This document shows, piece by piece, positions 31,092 through 37,962 of a stretch of 64,000 nt of DNA. The stretch is from the NCBI RefSeq assembly GCF_000311845.1, contig NZ_HE978575.1:84715-148714 (forward strand), read 5' to 3'. Source of the stretch: Enorma massiliensis phI (GTDB taxonomy: Bacteria; Actinomycetota; Coriobacteriia; Coriobacteriales; Coriobacteriaceae). Position numbers and translations under genes: made by a program. Numbering within the stretch: the first letter of the stretch is position 1; each line of letters starts with the position of its first letter. The notes under the pieces are model-generated. The model was not told the DNA's origin. It made no database searches and saw nothing but the letters and a program-made list of their open reading frames with translations.

Positions 31092-31469
31092 GTGGAACTC
31101 ATCATCTCCAACGCGAGCAGCAAGCCCATCTACGAGCAGATCACGGGTCAAATCAAGGCCATGATCCTCTCTGGAGAGCTTGCCGAGGGCGAACAGCTCC
31201 CGAGCATTCGCGCGCTGGCCAACAGCCTGCGGGTGAGCGCCATCACCACGAAGCGCGCCTACGCCGACCTTGAGGCCGATGGCTTCATTGAGACGGTCCA
31301 AGGAAAAGGAAGCTTCGTCGCCGGAGGCAACGCGGAGCTCATCCGCGAGGAGCAGCTGCGTCAGGTGGAGGAGCTCATGGGGCAGGCGGTCGATGCCGGC
31401 CGCGCCATGGGCCTCTCGAAGACCGAGCTTACCGAGATGTTCACCTTGCAGCTCGAAGACGGGGACTGA
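31092..31469 (+). CDS. GntR-family regulator, YtrA subfamily
   Basis: A 125-residue protein consisting of the GntR winged helix (KPIYEQITGQIKAMILSGEL to LPSIRALANSLRVSAITTKRAY, ADLEADGFIETVQGKGSFVAG) and a short two-helix C-terminus. This is the YtrA layout, lacking a large effector domain. YtrA regulators usually repress their own operon encoding ABC transporters, which fits the downstream ATPase and permease and the palindromic operator on its promoter. The inducing signal is often envelope stress; here that is inference. Confidence 0.92.
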   Translation: MELIISNASSKPIYEQITGQIKAMILSGELAEGEQLPSIRALANSLRVSAITTKRAYADLEADGFIETVQGKGSFVAGGNAELIREEQLRQVEELMGQAVDAGRAMGLSKTELTEMFTLQLEDGD

Positions 31470-31498
31470 TGGCGGGGCCGAAATGCCAAATACGGTGA

Positions 31499-31525
31499 GT
31501 CAAAACGGGACAGTCCCAATTTGAC
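31499..31525. repeat. 27-bp imperfect palindrome between the GntR and ABC genes
   Basis: GTCAAAACGGGAC-A-GTCCCAATTTGAC is nearly self-complementary, centred on an A at 31512. It may be an internal operator, a processing hairpin, or a repeat. Confidence 0.55.
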
Positions 31526-31569
31526 CGATTTAACACCTCGGTCCCAGGGTCAACCGAAAGGACAGTACG

Positions 31570-32502
31570 ATGACGATTGTCGAAAGCCGGGGGCAGGTCC
31601 CGGGTGCCGCGCAGGACGTCCCGCTCATCGAGGCGCGCGGAATCATCAAGCACTATGACGGTTTTTCGCTCGATAACGTAAGCCTCTCTGTGGGCGAGGG
31701 CGAGGTCGTTGGCTTCGTTGGCAAGAACGGCGCCGGCAAGTCGACTACCATCAAGGCACTGCTGGGCCTCGTCAAGCTCGATGGAGGCGAGGGATCCATC
31801 CTCGGCGTCCCGTCGAGCGAGCTCTCCCGCCCCGTGCACGCCGGGACGAAGGAGCGCATCGGTGTGGTTTTCGACACGATTTCCATGCCCGGGCACCTTC
31901 GCGTCGCCGATGTGGGGCGCGTATTCTCCCATGCGTACGCCTCATGGAATCCTCGCATGTTCGAGCAGCTCACGCACGATTTCGATCTTGCTGCTACCAA
32001 GCAGGTGAAGGAGCTCTCACGCGGCATGGGCATGAAGCTCAGCCTCGCCTGTGCGCTCAGCCACGATGCGCGCGTACTCATCCTAGACGAGGCGACCGCG
32101 GGCCTCGACCCCATGGCTCGTGACGAGCTCCTCGACCGATTGCTCGATTTCGTCGCCATGCCTGGGCGCGCCATCCTCATGTCGAGCCACATTACCTCCG
32201 ACCTCGAGCGCATCGCGGACCGGGTGCTGGGCATCGACGGCGGGCGGATCATCTTCGACTTGGCTAAAGACGAAATCACCGACGAGATGGGTATCGCCCG
32301 CTGCCGCGTGGCGGAGTTCGAGCGCATCTGCGCAAGCGGCATCATCCCCGAGGGCCAGCTGCGTTATCGCAAGAACGACTATGGCATCGACCTGCTCGTT
32401 CCCGATCGCTTTGTCTTCGCCGAGAACTTCCCCAACGTTCCGTGCGACCGGATGTCCATCGACGACTATCTCTCCCTTACCCTGAAAGGTGGTGTGCGGT
32501 AA
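31570..32502 (+). CDS. ABC transporter ATP-binding protein
   Basis: A 310-residue ATPase with Walker A GKNGAGKST, Q-loop region replaced by VVFDTISMPGHL, signature LSRGMGMKL, Walker B VLILDEATAGLD and H-loop SSHITSDL. The unusual signature and the C-terminal about 80-residue extension match the YtrB-like ATPases found with YtrA regulators. GAAAGGAC lies eight bases before the ATG. It abuts the permease gene with no gap. Confidence 0.93.
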   Translation: MTIVESRGQVPGAAQDVPLIEARGIIKHYDGFSLDNVSLSVGEGEVVGFVGKNGAGKSTTIKALLGLVKLDGGEGSILGVPSSELSRPVHAGTKERIGVVFDTISMPGHLRVADVGRVFSHAYASWNPRMFEQLTHDFDLAATKQVKELSRGMGMKLSLACALSHDARVLILDEATAGLDPMARDELLDRLLDFVAMPGRAILMSSHITSDLERIADRVLGIDGGRIIFDLAKDEITDEMGIARCRVAEFERICASGIIPEGQLRYRKNDYGIDLLVPDRFVFAENFPNVPCDRMSIDDYLSLTLKGGVR

Positions 32503-33228
32503 ATGAAGCGCGCGTACCTTATGGAAATGACGATTTTCCGCGATTACATCAAGCAGCTCATGGGCGTTGGCTTTTTCGTCTCGATATTCGTTTCGGCGGG
32601 CATGGGTTCGATCGTGGCCGCGCCGGCGATTCTCACCACGATGTTCTTCATGATGGGCTGCATGTCGGCGAGCGCTTACGACGAGCAGAGCAACTGGGGC
32701 GCCTTCCGGCTGACCATGCCGGTGAGCCGCCGCGATGTGGTGCTCGGCCGCTACGGCGTCATCGTGACGCTCGGGTTCCTGGGCATGGCGGCGGGCTGGG
32801 CTGCCTGCCTGCTCATCCTGGCTTTGGGGAGTGCCGTTGAGCTTCCGTTCGGCCTTTCGGATGCCATCGCGTTTGACGAGGGCATGTTCCTGGGAGCGGT
32901 TTTCTCTACCGCGTTTTGCATGGCGCTCGGCTCGCTCATCGCATCGATCGAGACGCCCATCTACTTCAAGTTCGGACAGAACAAGACCACGCAATGGCTG
33001 CCCATGATCACCGTGCTGCTCTTCGTGGGGCCCATGCTCATCATCAACGGCACCGGCATCTTGGACAACGGATCGATGAGCTTCGGCAACCTCGCCTCGC
33101 TTCTGGGGTTCATCGAGACGCCCGTTGGCGTGGCGACGTGCTTTGCGATCTTCCTCGCGTTCACGGTCGTGGTGCTTGGTATCTCTGCCGCCGTCTCGCT
33201 CAAGCTCTACGAAGGGCGCGAGCTGTAG
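32503..33228 (+). CDS. ABC-2 type permease
   Basis: A 241-residue protein with six predicted membrane helices, including VGFFVSIFVSAGMGSIVAAPAI, YGVIVTLGFLGMAAGWAACLLILAL and VATCFAIFLAFTVVVLGISAAVSL. The DEQSNWGAFRLTMPVSRRDVVLGRY loop is characteristic of ABC-2 permeases paired with YtrB-like ATPases. It begins immediately after the ATPase stop. Its 3' end overlaps the 3' end of the convergent LuxR-type gene by 22 bp. Confidence 0.9.
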   Translation: MKRAYLMEMTIFRDYIKQLMGVGFFVSIFVSAGMGSIVAAPAILTTMFFMMGCMSASAYDEQSNWGAFRLTMPVSRRDVVLGRYGVIVTLGFLGMAAGWAACLLILALGSAVELPFGLSDAIAFDEGMFLGAVFSTAFCMALGSLIASIETPIYFKFGQNKTTQWLPMITVLLFVGPMLIINGTGILDNGSMSFGNLASLLGFIETPVGVATCFAIFLAFTVVVLGISAAVSLKLYEGREL

Positions 33229-35513
33229 GCGCGAGCATCCTCGCTCTCAGAATTCTCCTTTTCCGCTTGCACAAGAAGGACCGCAGCTGCCTGCATCAGT
33301 TCTTTTCGCGAATGGATCCCAAGCTTTTTGTAGGCGTGCTGTAGATGGGTTCGGACGGTATGCACGCTGATCCCCAAGATCTCTGCAATATGGTTCGTAG
33401 TGTATCCGTGCAACGCCTGCATGACCACTTCCCGCTCTCGGCACGTTAACTCGTTTTCAAGAGTCGAACGCCACGTTTGCTGCGAGGGACAGTCGGCGTT
33501 ATGCCCGGCGTCTCGGCCGGCGGCTCGCCCCAGCGCGTTCGAGCATTCTTCAGGATGGTTCGGCTTGCAGGTAATTGCATCGAGGAAAACTGAGGCGGAG
33601 ACGCCCAGCATGACGAATTGGACGGGAATGCCGATGTGCCTCAGCAGAGCGTAGGAAAAGAGCGTTACGGCAACGAAGACGATTCTTTTTCTATGCACGT
33701 TTGTGATGAATATCCTGAATGCAAAGGAGAGGGCAACGATTAGGCATCCGTCGAGAGCGAGGTGCGCGCTATTGAGGAGCGCGAATGCAGCCGATCGGGA
33801 GGGATCATACTGCTGAGCGGCAAGCAAGTCCGCCGTATGGCGAGAGAGCCCGAGCATAAGGACTACGAGGAACATAAACACGGGTATTGCCAGTGTTAAG
33901 GAGCGCCGCCCTTTTCGCGGTTCTGGAAATAGGGGCACGCCGCATGCATACGTCAGAGCAAGCGAAATGGCGATCTTCCAAGCAAGGGGCCACGTTGAAG
34001 CGAGTACAGCGGAAAATGCCGAGCATAGAATGTCTGCAGCTACATACAAAAGGACCAGCAGCGTTAATCCTGCAGCAACGCCAGAAGACCGTTGGAGCTT
34101 TGCGGCGGTAAGAAGCATCATAGGTTGTTTGGCTTTTCCCGTTGTCGCTTTTGCCGTGTGATCGCATGTGAATTTGGCATCTGCATAGAGCTCGAGGAAC
34201 ATGTCTTTTGAGGAGACTCCAAGCTTGCGATATAGGCGAGCCGCGTATGTCGACACGGCAGATTTAGAGATTCTAAGGCGCTGCGCTATGTCTGAGAACG
34301 CTTTGCCGCAAATCAGCTGTTGCGCTACGTTCAACTCCTGTTGGGATAGGCCGTGAGACTTTAGAAGCATGCTGACCGCCGAAGCATTCGCTTCACTGTC
34401 TGGTGAAGCGCTCGGTTTGCTTATCAAAAAGGAGCTGTGCTTAATGAGTCGAGAGCGTGAAGCGATGATGGCGCATGCTCCGGCGCAAGCTACGAGTCCA
34501 AGCTGGAGCAAGCCGAAGTATGGGTCATTGATTGGGGCCGCCGCAGCGTTGTGGAACAGTCTTATGGCGAGCGCGGTAAGTAGAAGCGGCATGAACTGAG
34601 CTTTGTCAGAGATGAGATTGCGGCCGTTTTTGCTATCGCTGGAATTGTTGCGAGCTTGAGAGCCATCGCAAGCATGGCGCGATGGCGAGACCAAAAAGAA
34701 AATGGAAAGAAAGCCGATGATGAGCCCGAGTTCGGGAATGCTGTATCCCAATGCGGCTTGAACGAGGGCAAGCAGGAGGAAAAAGAGCGGGGTTGCCGTT
34801 TCCCCTGCCTTTGCGCGCAGGGCACGGGAGATGCTTGAGGTGATGAGTGCAAGCAGCAGACACGTAGAAAACGCGACGTCGCTGTACTCCTTGGTGTGGG
34901 AAAGTGAAATAGAGGGTACGAAGCTTGAAGTGTTCGAACAGAGAGCACATGCAAGGCCGAGCGACAGGAACTCAAAGAGACGCGCTGAGTCAATGGGCCC
35001 AGGTATGCATGTTCGCGCGTCGCGATGAGGCTGCGCTGAATGCTGGCTGAGAAGAAGGACGATTGCGCCGCCCATAAGCAGGGCTTGTGGAGCGATTGCA
35101 TAGAGCGTGAAAGCTGCAAGCCCGGGGATGATTCGCACCCGTTGAGGTTCCCATCGGCGGCATAGGGCAAGAACCGCGAGCAGCAGGGAAAGGGGCGGTG
35201 CTAGATGCATGATTGATGCCGAACAGACGAGCATGAGGGTGTATGGGTGCTTCAAAGGGCAAGGAAGGGCAAGTTTGCTTCGCATGCTGTTCAACATGCT
35301 CTGCGCCCTGTGTGCGCGCAGGACAAAGAGCAAAAGAACGGCTGCAATCGCTCCAATGAGAGCATAGGGTCCATGCAGTGACCCTATGCTCTCGCTAAAT
35401 GGGGGCAGTATGCACCGAACAATATGAAACGACCAGGTCGTAACTGCATATGGTGCAAGGCGGTGAAGTACGCGCTTTGACGTCCTTCGGTATGTGCCGG
35501 CGACGTATTCCAT
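33207..35513 (-). CDS. Membrane LuxR-family regulator with two membrane blocks and two HTH domains
   Basis: A 768-residue protein. Membrane helices fill residues about 45-355, followed by a LuxR helix-turn-helix at about 387-443 (LSQQELNVAQQLICGKAFSD, then IAQRLRISKSAVSTYAARLY). A second, shorter membrane block spans about 475-645, and a second LuxR HTH at about 688-745 carries the canonical LTCREREVVMQALHGYTTNHIAEILGISVHTVRTH. Single-block versions (membrane sensor plus C-terminal HTH) are common in Coriobacteriia; two in one chain is unusual. The second HTH matches the consensus better. GGATTG-type spacing places it 18 bp after the small membrane-protein gene, in one operon. Confidence 0.88.
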   Translation of the reverse strand: MEYVAGTYRRTSKRVLHRLAPYAVTTWSFHIVRCILPPFSESIGSLHGPYALIGAIAAVLLLFVLRAHRAQSMLNSMRSKLALPCPLKHPYTLMLVCSASIMHLAPPLSLLLAVLALCRRWEPQRVRIIPGLAAFTLYAIAPQALLMGGAIVLLLSQHSAQPHRDARTCIPGPIDSARLFEFLSLGLACALCSNTSSFVPSISLSHTKEYSDVAFSTCLLLALITSSISRALRAKAGETATPLFFLLLALVQAALGYSIPELGLIIGFLSIFFLVSPSRHACDGSQARNNSSDSKNGRNLISDKAQFMPLLLTALAIRLFHNAAAAPINDPYFGLLQLGLVACAGACAIIASRSRLIKHSSFLISKPSASPDSEANASAVSMLLKSHGLSQQELNVAQQLICGKAFSDIAQRLRISKSAVSTYAARLYRKLGVSSKDMFLELYADAKFTCDHTAKATTGKAKQPMMLLTAAKLQRSSGVAAGLTLLVLLYVAADILCSAFSAVLASTWPLAWKIAISLALTYACGVPLFPEPRKGRRSLTLAIPVFMFLVVLMLGLSRHTADLLAAQQYDPSRSAAFALLNSAHLALDGCLIVALSFAFRIFITNVHRKRIVFVAVTLFSYALLRHIGIPVQFVMLGVSASVFLDAITCKPNHPEECSNALGRAAGRDAGHNADCPSQQTWRSTLENELTCREREVVMQALHGYTTNHIAEILGISVHTVRTHLQHAYKKLGIHSRKELMQAAAVLLVQAEKENSESEDARAYSSRPS

Positions 35514-35531
35514 GTTGTCCCGGCTTAGATG

Positions 35532-35687
35532 TCAATCGCGCTCCGTTTGGTCTTGGGAGGTGCGCAAAGCGTCTCTCACCGCCTTGCGGATGACGAGGTA
35601 GAGAAGTGCGAGCATGATGAGGCGGGGCATAAACCAATACAGTAATCCTAGAAGTATCCCAGTAAGCTGTGTGATTGTTGGCAACAT
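35532..35687 (-). CDS. Small membrane protein, 51 residues
   Basis: The frame starts at ATG 35687 after a clear GGGGAG and ends at TGA 35532. It encodes a hydrophobic N-terminal 35 residues (LTGILLGLLYWFMPRLIML, then ALLYLVI) and a charged C-tail ending SQDQTERD. It lies 55 bp after the Tat-signal gene and 18 bp before the LuxR-type gene, all on the minus strand. No family is recognised. Evidence for reality is the ribosome-binding site, operon spacing and membrane-like composition. Confidence 0.65.
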   Translation of the reverse strand: MLPTITQLTGILLGLLYWFMPRLIMLALLYLVIRKAVRDALRTSQDQTERD

Positions 35688-35742
35688 GGCGTTCTCCCCA
35701 TCATACAATGCCGACTGCTTTCATCGTCGAGCGTTCAGTTTG

Positions 35743-36300
35743 CTATGAGACGGGACCTCCGTTCATCCAGCCGCTTCCATTACTGTAAAACTCTGCGTAG
35801 AAGTGACAGGCAGTCGCAATTTGCGTAAGAGGCTTGATCTGACAAGAGTAGCTAACGCACAGCGTCTGCCCCTGATCGAGCTTGGTGTAGCTATAGGTAA
35901 GGTTCGATACTGATCCGGGATTCGCTTGAATCCAGGCATTTTGAACAGTCGTAATGTTATTTCCTGATGTGTTATATGTGGCGACGGCGTCGACCTGTGT
36001 TGGAGCGAGCTTGATGACGCATGACATTGTTGCGACGCCAGTCTTGAGCGCTCGGGTGAGCGCCTGAGGACCTGGTATCAGGTTTTCATGCACCTCGGCT
36101 CCTTCTTGTTTCGCCTTCCTGACTGCTTCTTCCCAAAGCGCTTTTGCTTGCTCGCCCTTGCTGGTGTCGTTCGACACATTAGCAGAAGCCATTGTCTGAG
36201 CATTTGCGATGCTGGGGAAGGCCGCAATAAATGTTGCGGAAGCAAGGGAGGCCAAGAATCCGCGACGGCTTATGTTGGCCCGTTGATTCGACTGGTCCAT
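35743..36300 (-). CDS. Tat-exported protein of unknown function
   Basis: A 185-residue protein beginning at Met 36300, with GAGGAGATAACC before it. It has a twin-arginine signal (NISRRGFLASLASATFIAAF) with probable cleavage after ANA. The mature part begins with a charged helix (KGEQAKALWEEAVRKAKQEG) followed by a beta-rich region with three cysteines in its second half (CVSYSCQIKPL, ACHFYAEF). The ending NGSGWMNGGPVS is glycine-rich. I do not recognise a family. As first gene of the operon with the small membrane protein and the LuxR-type receptor, it may present or sense the ligand for that receptor; this is inference. Confidence 0.75.
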   Translation of the reverse strand: MDQSNQRANISRRGFLASLASATFIAAFPSIANAQTMASANVSNDTSKGEQAKALWEEAVRKAKQEGAEVHENLIPGPQALTRALKTGVATMSCVIKLAPTQVDAVATYNTSGNNITTVQNAWIQANPGSVSNLTYSYTKLDQGQTLCVSYSCQIKPLTQIATACHFYAEFYSNGSGWMNGGPVS

Positions 36301-36398
36301 GGTTATCTCCTCGCGTTGAGGTTCTGATGCATGAAAGGGATCCTTCACATGACAAGCATGCCCCGCGAGATGCCATATGTCTGTAGTGCAAATAGATG

Positions 36399-36421
36399 AT
36401 ATTGCGTGAATGGGGCAATAT
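36399..36421. promoter_or_regulatory. Candidate operator upstream of the Tat/LuxR operon
   Basis: ATATTGC (36399-36405) and GCAATAT (36415-36421) form an inverted repeat about 100 bp before the first gene of the operon; nearby minus-strand TTGCCC could be a -35. Otherwise the 36301-36665 gap shows no convincing gene. Confidence 0.35.
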
Positions 36422-36665
36422 GGGCGGTGAACGGCTGCGCATTGCTTGTTTCATGCGTCGAGACACGCTGGCAGTTCGTGAATCGTCAAATGGATACAGA
36501 GTCTATGAGGGGTCAACGGAGTGTCGCCGTCCCGTTCTGGCTCTACGAGGGGTGCGAGCTGTAAGGTTCCGCCGTTCTGACGTGGGTCGCTGGCGCCTGC
36601 CACCTTTGTCCCGCGTGCGTGACAGTCGTGCCAGGGGAAGCCATCACATCCGTCTTCTTGAATAG

Positions 36666-36722
36666 TTGAAGTCCTCAGTTTGGTCTTTCTCGGCTGAAAA
36701 TGTACCAAATTGAGGACTTTAA
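36666..36722. repeat. Left bracketing hairpin of nuclease-like gene 1
   Basis: TTGAAGTCCTCAGTTTGGT (36666-36684) pairs with 36704-36722 (17 of 19 positions) around a 19-base loop. It ends 21 bp before the ATG of the gene it precedes. A related hairpin lies beyond the gene's stop. Confidence 0.8.
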
Positions 36723-36743
36723 TGCGATCCACGGAGGTTTCAC

Positions 36744-37865
36744 ATGTCGCGTGCGGTTGATCAAGAGCTGGCCCGTCTGTTTTCCGCCGCCGAAGATTCC
36801 GGAACCTGCCTGTACGTTACCGAGCGTTGCCTTCGCAAATCGCTTGAGCGGAGGATGCGCGACGGGAGCGCCGTGTGCCCGCATCGGTCTTTGTACGCCC
36901 GCGCGCCGTATTGGCACGCGTTGCGTCCCGACGACCAAGCGCTGCATATCATACGAGGCCTCCAGCAGGCTCATCCCTCATGGGTGTTCTGCGCTCAGTC
37001 CGCAGGGCTGGTATGGGGCCTACCCATTTCGTATCGCAACCTCACGCCGATCCATGTCATTACCGGATCGCATCGGCAGCCCGCAGGCCAGTCAATCACG
37101 GCCCACGCGTTGCGCGACGAATCCATCCAGATGGTCCGCGGTGTGCGGGTGACGACGCTTCCGCGCACGGTGTTCGATTGCCTGCGCGCTGCTACCTTTG
37201 TCGACGGGCTTGCCATAGCCGACCGGTCGCTACGCATGTATGCCCCGGAACAGCGTCGCGAGTTTCGTGGCGAGCTCAAGCGCCTGTCGTACAGGCGCAA
37301 GGGAGGGCGGCGTGCCGTCGGAATCATGGGATATGCGGATGCGCGCAGCGAGAGCTGGGCGGAATCTGCGGCTCGTGCACTCATCATCATGCAGGGCTTT
37401 GCGTTGCCGAAGTTACAGGCGCCGTTTGACCAGCCGTTCAGTCCCGGACATGTCTATTACGTCGACATGCTCTTTACGCGCTCAGATGGCAGCAAAGTGA
37501 TTGGTGAGGTGGATGGCAACGAGAAGTATTGGAACCCGTCGATGCTCGCGGGACGTTCCACCGCGCGCGTGCTCGCGGACGAGCAGCACCGCGAATCCGA
37601 GCTCACGATGTATGGCATGCCGCTGATGAGGATATCGGTCGATGACATCGTGCATCCCCAGCAGTTCTATAGGAAGCTCAAGGCGTATGGTATTCCGCAA
37701 AGCGATGCAGCTGCTGAGAAGGTGCGGAGACTGGCGAAATCCGCTCCGGGGAGCGCGCTGTTCTTTGCATCGATGCCCCTGCCGAGACCGAAAGAGCTGA
37801 AGCTCATGTTGCAGAAGGCCGGGCTGGAAGAAGGTCAAGTGGGGGAGGGCGAGGTGTCTGATTGA
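36744..37865 (+). CDS. PD-(D/E)XK nuclease-like protein (DUF559/AbiEi-like), hairpin-bracketed copy 1
   Basis: A 373-residue protein. Residues about 1-165 resemble the N-terminal part of AbiEi-type antitoxins and similar proteins (LYVTERCLRKSLERRMRDG, then a beta-rich HVITGSHRQP and LPRTVFDCLRAA). Residues about 200-310 look like a DUF559/Vsr-type restriction fold: E207 in SESWAESAARALI, D241 in YYVDMLF, and E255-V-D257 in VIGEVDGNEKYW, then LTMYGMPLMRISVDDI. The start at 36744 follows ACGGAGG. It is bracketed by hairpins at 36666-36722 and 37899-37962. The protein at 40.4 kb has the same domain order. Function unknown; a nuclease or an antitoxin-like regulator are both possible. Confidence 0.8.
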   Translation: MSRAVDQELARLFSAAEDSGTCLYVTERCLRKSLERRMRDGSAVCPHRSLYARAPYWHALRPDDQALHIIRGLQQAHPSWVFCAQSAGLVWGLPISYRNLTPIHVITGSHRQPAGQSITAHALRDESIQMVRGVRVTTLPRTVFDCLRAATFVDGLAIADRSLRMYAPEQRREFRGELKRLSYRRKGGRRAVGIMGYADARSESWAESAARALIIMQGFALPKLQAPFDQPFSPGHVYYVDMLFTRSDGSKVIGEVDGNEKYWNPSMLAGRSTARVLADEQHRESELTMYGMPLMRISVDDIVHPQQFYRKLKAYGIPQSDAAAEKVRRLAKSAPGSALFFASMPLPRPKELKLMLQKAGLEEGQVGEGEVSD

Positions 37866-37898: not shown

Positions 37899-37962
37899 CG
37901 TTGAAGCCCTCATTTTTGTATGCTTATGCCTCAAAAATGGACCAGAATGAGGACTTCAACGC
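37899..37962. repeat. Right bracketing hairpin of nuclease-like gene 1
   Basis: ACGTTGAAGCCCTCATTTTTG (starting 37899) pairs imperfectly with ACCAGAATGAGGACTTCAACG (37941-37961). The stem ends (TTGAAGYCCTCA) are the same as in the hairpin left of the gene. It starts 34 bp after the stop. Confidence 0.8.

Follow-up and report, generated by a model that had tools for sequence, protein, structure and literature searches.

What kind of regulator places two membrane blocks and two helix-turn-helix (HTH) domains in one polypeptide, and is such a chain an accident of fusion or a sensor in its own right? LuxR/NarL-type HTHs normally pair via the dimerisation of separate chains, with a ligand or phosphate as the trigger. 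The question is raised by a gene of Enorma massiliensis phI, a gut-dwelling member of the Coriobacteriaceae, in the stretch of 64,000 nucleotides analysed here (hereinafter the window), which a preliminary description, made from the letters alone, had read as a fusion of two membrane LuxR regulators.

A single chain with two membrane blocks and two HTH domains

The gene is a single uninterrupted frame (774 aa stop to stop; Table 1), in which the Pfam GerE model (PF00196) recovers two stretches with a protein E of 9.7e-27 and 92.8 bits vs a gathering score of 23.5, the best stretch spanning residues 688-742. A home-made model places HTH1 at residues 387-441 (frame positions 393-447; E 2e-18). 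The layout originally described, two membrane blocks plus two HTHs on one chain, is therefore borne out, as is the shorter second block: six helices are predicted between the HTHs vs nine, perhaps ten, ahead of HTH1, where the hydropathy profile displays nine peaks and one possible weak N-terminal helix. On the six-helix reading, the charges of block 2 obey the positive-inside rule, with FPEPRKGRR and TNVHRKR as cytoplasmic loops and 0, 2, and 0 K/R in the outer loops; this would place both HTHs in the cytoplasm. Structure prediction, which had been proposed as a check, gave a divided answer: AlphaFold2 folds both HTHs with confidence (four helices each, pLDDT about 66-86), whereas the membrane part, modeled from an alignment of four sequences, cannot be relied on (mean pLDDT 44), such that the whole-protein model offers no usable membrane fold.

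Table 1. Features of the regulator and its operon (window positions)
Feature	Position	Strand	Remarks
Tandem-HTH membrane LuxR-type regulator	33207..35513	(-)	768 aa, one frame
Membrane block 1, residues 1-360	34434..35513	(-)	9 (perhaps 10) predicted helices, count uncertain
HTH1, residues 387-443	34185..34355	(-)	recognition helix SKSAVSTYAARLYRKLGV, EvgA-like
Membrane block 2, residues 479-651	33561..34079	(-)	six predicted helices
HTH2, residues 688-745	33279..33452	(-)	canonical recognition helix SVHTVRTHLQHAYKKLGIHSR
51-aa small membrane protein	35532..35687	(-)	18 nt upstream of regulator
Secreted protein	35743..36300	(-)	Tat-type signal (ISRRGFLASL); likely ATG start 36300
TACAGACAT	36377..36385	(-)	identical to core of group-B candidate operator

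Distribution and history of the tandem-HTH proteins

We gathered 47 non-identical two-HTH frames, the window's included, from across the Coriobacteriales, with carriers in Coriobacteriaceae and in other families; Collinsella sp. An7 and Candidatus Coprousia avicola are among the named carriers. The tandem layout, which at least 40 relatives share, recurs in dozens of genomes and is thus not a chance arrangement. The frame at one of these loci (L198) is cut by its contig. In three relatives (L131, L204, and L205) the first membrane block is missing, leaving an HTH-TM-HTH architecture, and none is encoded just upstream; hence, two membrane inputs, as suggested earlier, are not obligatory for the type. 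One further member of the set, L135, has just one TM helix. It resembles the short proteins at L136-L138 and L035, in which two HTHs follow directly on each other with one membrane helix; by eye, L135 and L137 share the same larB-like neighbor gene.

A tree built from 116 HTH domains, each labeled HTH1, HTH2, or single, needs 6 label changes, compared with 51 when the labels are shuffled, and the data do not reject HTH1 monophyly (p-AU 0.90), although the 56 columns resolve few branches. HTH1s thus group together, as do HTH2s, in keeping with a single ancient architecture. The protein does resemble a pair of membrane LuxR regulators placed end to end, but it is no one-off fusion: the architecture is spread across the lineage and comes with operon partners of its own. 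In a phylum-wide scan, the window's family was the only one to yield tandem proteins; as the scan scored two candidates per genome with a profile that also missed the group-B proteins found later (see below), absence outside Coriobacteriales is not established by it. A single-protein scan of genome contigs found nothing, nor did searches of plasmids and phages. The G+C content of the operon (33207-36740) is 52-55% vs 62% for the window, and many tandem-HTH genes are likewise lower in G+C than their flanks, which makes a recent transfer possible.

Linkage to secreted proteins and ABC transporters

The regulator is the last gene of a three-gene operon, preceded by genes for a secreted protein with a Tat-type signal (whose listed GTG ORF starts at 36348) and a 51-aa membrane protein. 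A homolog of the latter lies directly upstream of a tandem-HTH gene at L044 (E 2e-4) and another directly downstream of a homolog of the secreted protein at L178 (E 0.005). The secreted protein itself has homologs in 2/66 other genomes of the family, one of them at a tandem-HTH locus: the only clear one is at L178 (E 1e-24), and the tandem-HTH locus L179 carries a weak one (E 0.004). With so few loci bearing homologs, the linkage of the window operon rests on a small sample. Next to the homologs of both proteins, L178 (6174-9304) encodes a radical SAM/SPASM protein that resembles peptide maturases, a hint of a pathway for a modified peptide. The secreted protein modeled alone gave no usable structure.

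Two other gene neighborhoods are better populated. In group A, two ABC-2-type permeases and an ATPase precede the tandem-HTH gene, with ends that often overlap. When 299 genomes are searched with a profile of the second permease, 10 places emerge, and every one of them (10/10) adjoins a tandem-HTH gene; five of these places were in the profile alignment, and the five held out give 5/5. Group B has the order tandem-HTH gene, secreted protein of ~150-200 aa, anchored extracytoplasmic protein, two permeases, and ATPase, the secreted protein between regulator and transporter belonging to a family ending in GxWSPD. A three-locus profile for one of its permeases picks out about 50 places among 249 genomes, and the tandem-HTH gene adjoins 17/20 of the evaluable places inspected outside the profile-building set; the remaining 3/20 yielded no tandem-HTH gene even at loose thresholds. 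More generally, an ABC ATPase is encoded nearby at 13/23 tandem loci vs 1/20 loci of single-HTH membrane LuxR proteins (p 3e-4), the former count taking in the window, whose convergent GntR/ABC operon (31092-33228) may be unrelated to the regulator. None of the group A/B ABC genes (perm1A/perm2A/permB) is found in the window.

A group A permease shows weak similarity to MutE (E 3e-4) and DUF2705 (E 1e-4), and more broadly to the lantibiotic-immunity and PSM-export ABC permeases MutE/EpiE, MutG, and PmtD, while the group B secreted proteins weakly resemble DUF2712 (E 0.004-0.01); all these similarities are below the curated cut-offs and thus serve only as a lead. We found no description of tandem-HTH LuxR proteins or of DUF2712 in the open-access literature. 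Taken together, the neighborhoods point to a secreted-protein/ABC cassette, as yet without a named function, across several Coriobacteriales families. Small secreted proteins of another family, marked by a YFDGxNIGIE motif, also adjoin tandem-HTH genes (L045, L128/L179, L132, and L134); in 67 genomes of the bacterial family, the only matches to it are three of its building loci.

A candidate operator

At many group B loci, an inverted repeat of the form TGTAANC - 27 to 29 nt - GNTTACA(K)AC lies between the regulator and the secreted-protein gene, usually beginning over the stop codon of the former and ending ahead of the latter. A matrix trained on seven such sites has its best match at the same junction in the held-out loci L042/L043, L192, L206, and L198 (of which L198 nearly duplicates a training locus), and at L127 it matches just before the regulator; these score 18.8-22.3 vs a maximum of 16.4 in 20 control loci. 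The junctions of L203 and L202 score 15.9 and 15.7, values that the best control match over 9.5 kb also attains but that none of 1500 random stretches of 150 nt reaches. Group A loci, like L196, L200, L207, and L210, have no such repeat or a weak one. Within loci, the variable positions of the arms match at 16/22 vs 10.5 after shuffling (p 0.004), and this covariation of inverted arms argues against an asymmetric composite operator, which we had also considered. We propose the repeat as a candidate operator; if it is one, its near-identical inverted arms would probably be occupied by two chains or by the two heads of one chain. It may also be an RNA element, with good hairpin folding of the RNA in 4/6 of the repeat loci tested.

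In the window, a nine-base match to the repeat core (TACAGACAT), noticed after the fact, occurs about 77 nt ahead of where the secreted-protein gene probably starts, with no partner arm seen; we regard it as weak evidence for an operator core. An inverted repeat at 36666-36722 was set aside as the window operator, since a related pair on the far side of gene 36744-37865 assigns it to this gene or element. With the two related imperfect palindromes on either side (36666-36722 and about 37904-37956; arms AAGTCCTCARTTTGGT), the gene has the look of a small unit that is mobile or regulates itself.

Two constrained heads and the alternative readings

Pooled over nine close pairs (some sharing members, one saturated), pN/pS is 0.19 for HTH1 and 0.15 for HTH2, as opposed to 0.52 and 0.49 for TM1 and TM2. 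With both HTHs strongly constrained and the membrane blocks fast-evolving, both heads are probably in use, the pattern being as expected for DNA readers on changing sensors. The window HTH1 retains all four signature residues E, R, Y, and K (QQE...AARLYRK), and constraint together with this conserved signature rules out a degenerate HTH1. The H-S-R loop is kept more often in HTH2. Whether HTH1 keeps its DNA-contact residues, a check set out at the start, has a mixed answer: there is no basic residue at the main recognition position and the usual K/R-x-H is absent, with S-T-Y in its place, but the helix is EvgA-like at that point. EvgA, a NarL/FixJ-type response regulator, is the nearest solved relative of HTH1 (aligned over VSTYKSRLMEKL, E 3.8e-6) and shares the V-S-T-Y wording of the recognition helix; it differs in being soluble, with a receiver domain, and in belonging to a two-component system.

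These features bear on the reading in which HTH2 alone binds DNA and HTH1 makes protein contacts or has a structural part, in dimerisation or autoinhibition. The window HTH2 is indeed the more canonical, as first described (T-V-R-T-H helix vs A-V-S-T-Y in HTH1), and the symmetry of the candidate operator is what one kind of HTH reading both arms would produce. Yet, HTH1 is equally constrained, its E, R, and K are present in 100%, 96%, and 100% of the 47 proteins (Y in 94%), its helix matches that of a DNA-binding response regulator, and in group B it is HTH2, rather than HTH1, that strays further from the canonical helix. We hence deem an HTH2-only regulator unlikely, if a serious contender, and infer that both HTHs bind DNA.

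Less probable still is that the protein is simply one more 10-12-TM LuxR regulator of Coriobacteriia like DadR, HcdR, and CadR (Dong et al., 2022; PMC9734109), one that regulates a nearby metabolic gene and carries its second HTH incidentally. As described in the main text of that report, these share with the tandem proteins their lineage at the level of bacterial class, a polytopic and fast-diverging membrane domain, a GerE-type HTH, and one-component sensing; however, they possess one membrane block and one C-terminal HTH and are linked to molybdenum- and flavin-dependent enzymes. The window protein departs from this layout in its additional mid-chain HTH and second membrane block (TM-HTH1-TM-HTH2 in one frame), the tandem proteins form their own HTH clusters, and their loci feature ABC/secreted-protein operons rather than the enzymes reported for the DadR/HcdR/CadR family. 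The terms 'two HTH', 'dimer', and 'ABC transporter', and with them the tandem form, do not occur in that main text, for which reason we take the tandem class with its ABC/secreted-protein partners as a new variant relative to it. An artefact, in which an error of sequencing or assembly merged two genes, has next to no likelihood: the preliminary description had envisaged separate genes in relatives and a stop codon lost here, and its proposed search instead recovered 46 other non-identical one-frame Coriobacteriales proteins from independent assemblies, two of them in the window's own genome (frames of 928 and 957 aa), no two-gene split among the relatives examined, and nothing in support of an error.

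Proposed mechanism and implications

Being common to relatives, with both heads under selection and a secreted-protein/ABC operon as the usual neighbor, the tandem-HTH layout looks like a real and apparently undescribed class of sensor-regulator. The interpretation that we favor, with some reserve as to DNA binding and signal, is a membrane-embedded one-component regulator whose covalent HTH pair acts on the neighboring secreted-protein operon. The sensor helices would read something at or in the membrane, e.g., an exported product, the state of a transporter, or a membrane ligand, with the exported product or transporter activity as the suggested signal. The membrane blocks would then set the position or pairing of the two GerE-type HTHs tethered in the cytoplasm, which could serve as a built-in pair on the DNA at the promoter of the operon. 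In relatives, the controlled operon would comprise the secreted protein and the ABC transporter; in the window, it would comprise the secreted protein, the 51-aa membrane protein, and the regulator itself.

A partial parallel is offered by the immunity repressor of the mycobacteriophage TipsytheTRex (PMC9283540), which likewise has two DNA-binding domains in one chain and is reported to bind only when these are covalently linked; it differs in being soluble and lacking a membrane part, with two unlike domains and an asymmetric site.

More tentatively, and with more doubt than confidence, the tandem proteins might constitute a new signaling class of gut Coriobacteriia, in which covalently joined, diverged heads with their own membrane inputs control a conserved cassette for the secretion of a small protein and its handling by a dedicated ABC transporter, possibly a bacteriocin-like or cell-cell signaling system. 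A single chain bearing both heads on two membrane blocks would couple sensing to promoter choice in a different manner, and two inputs could be combined in one molecule.
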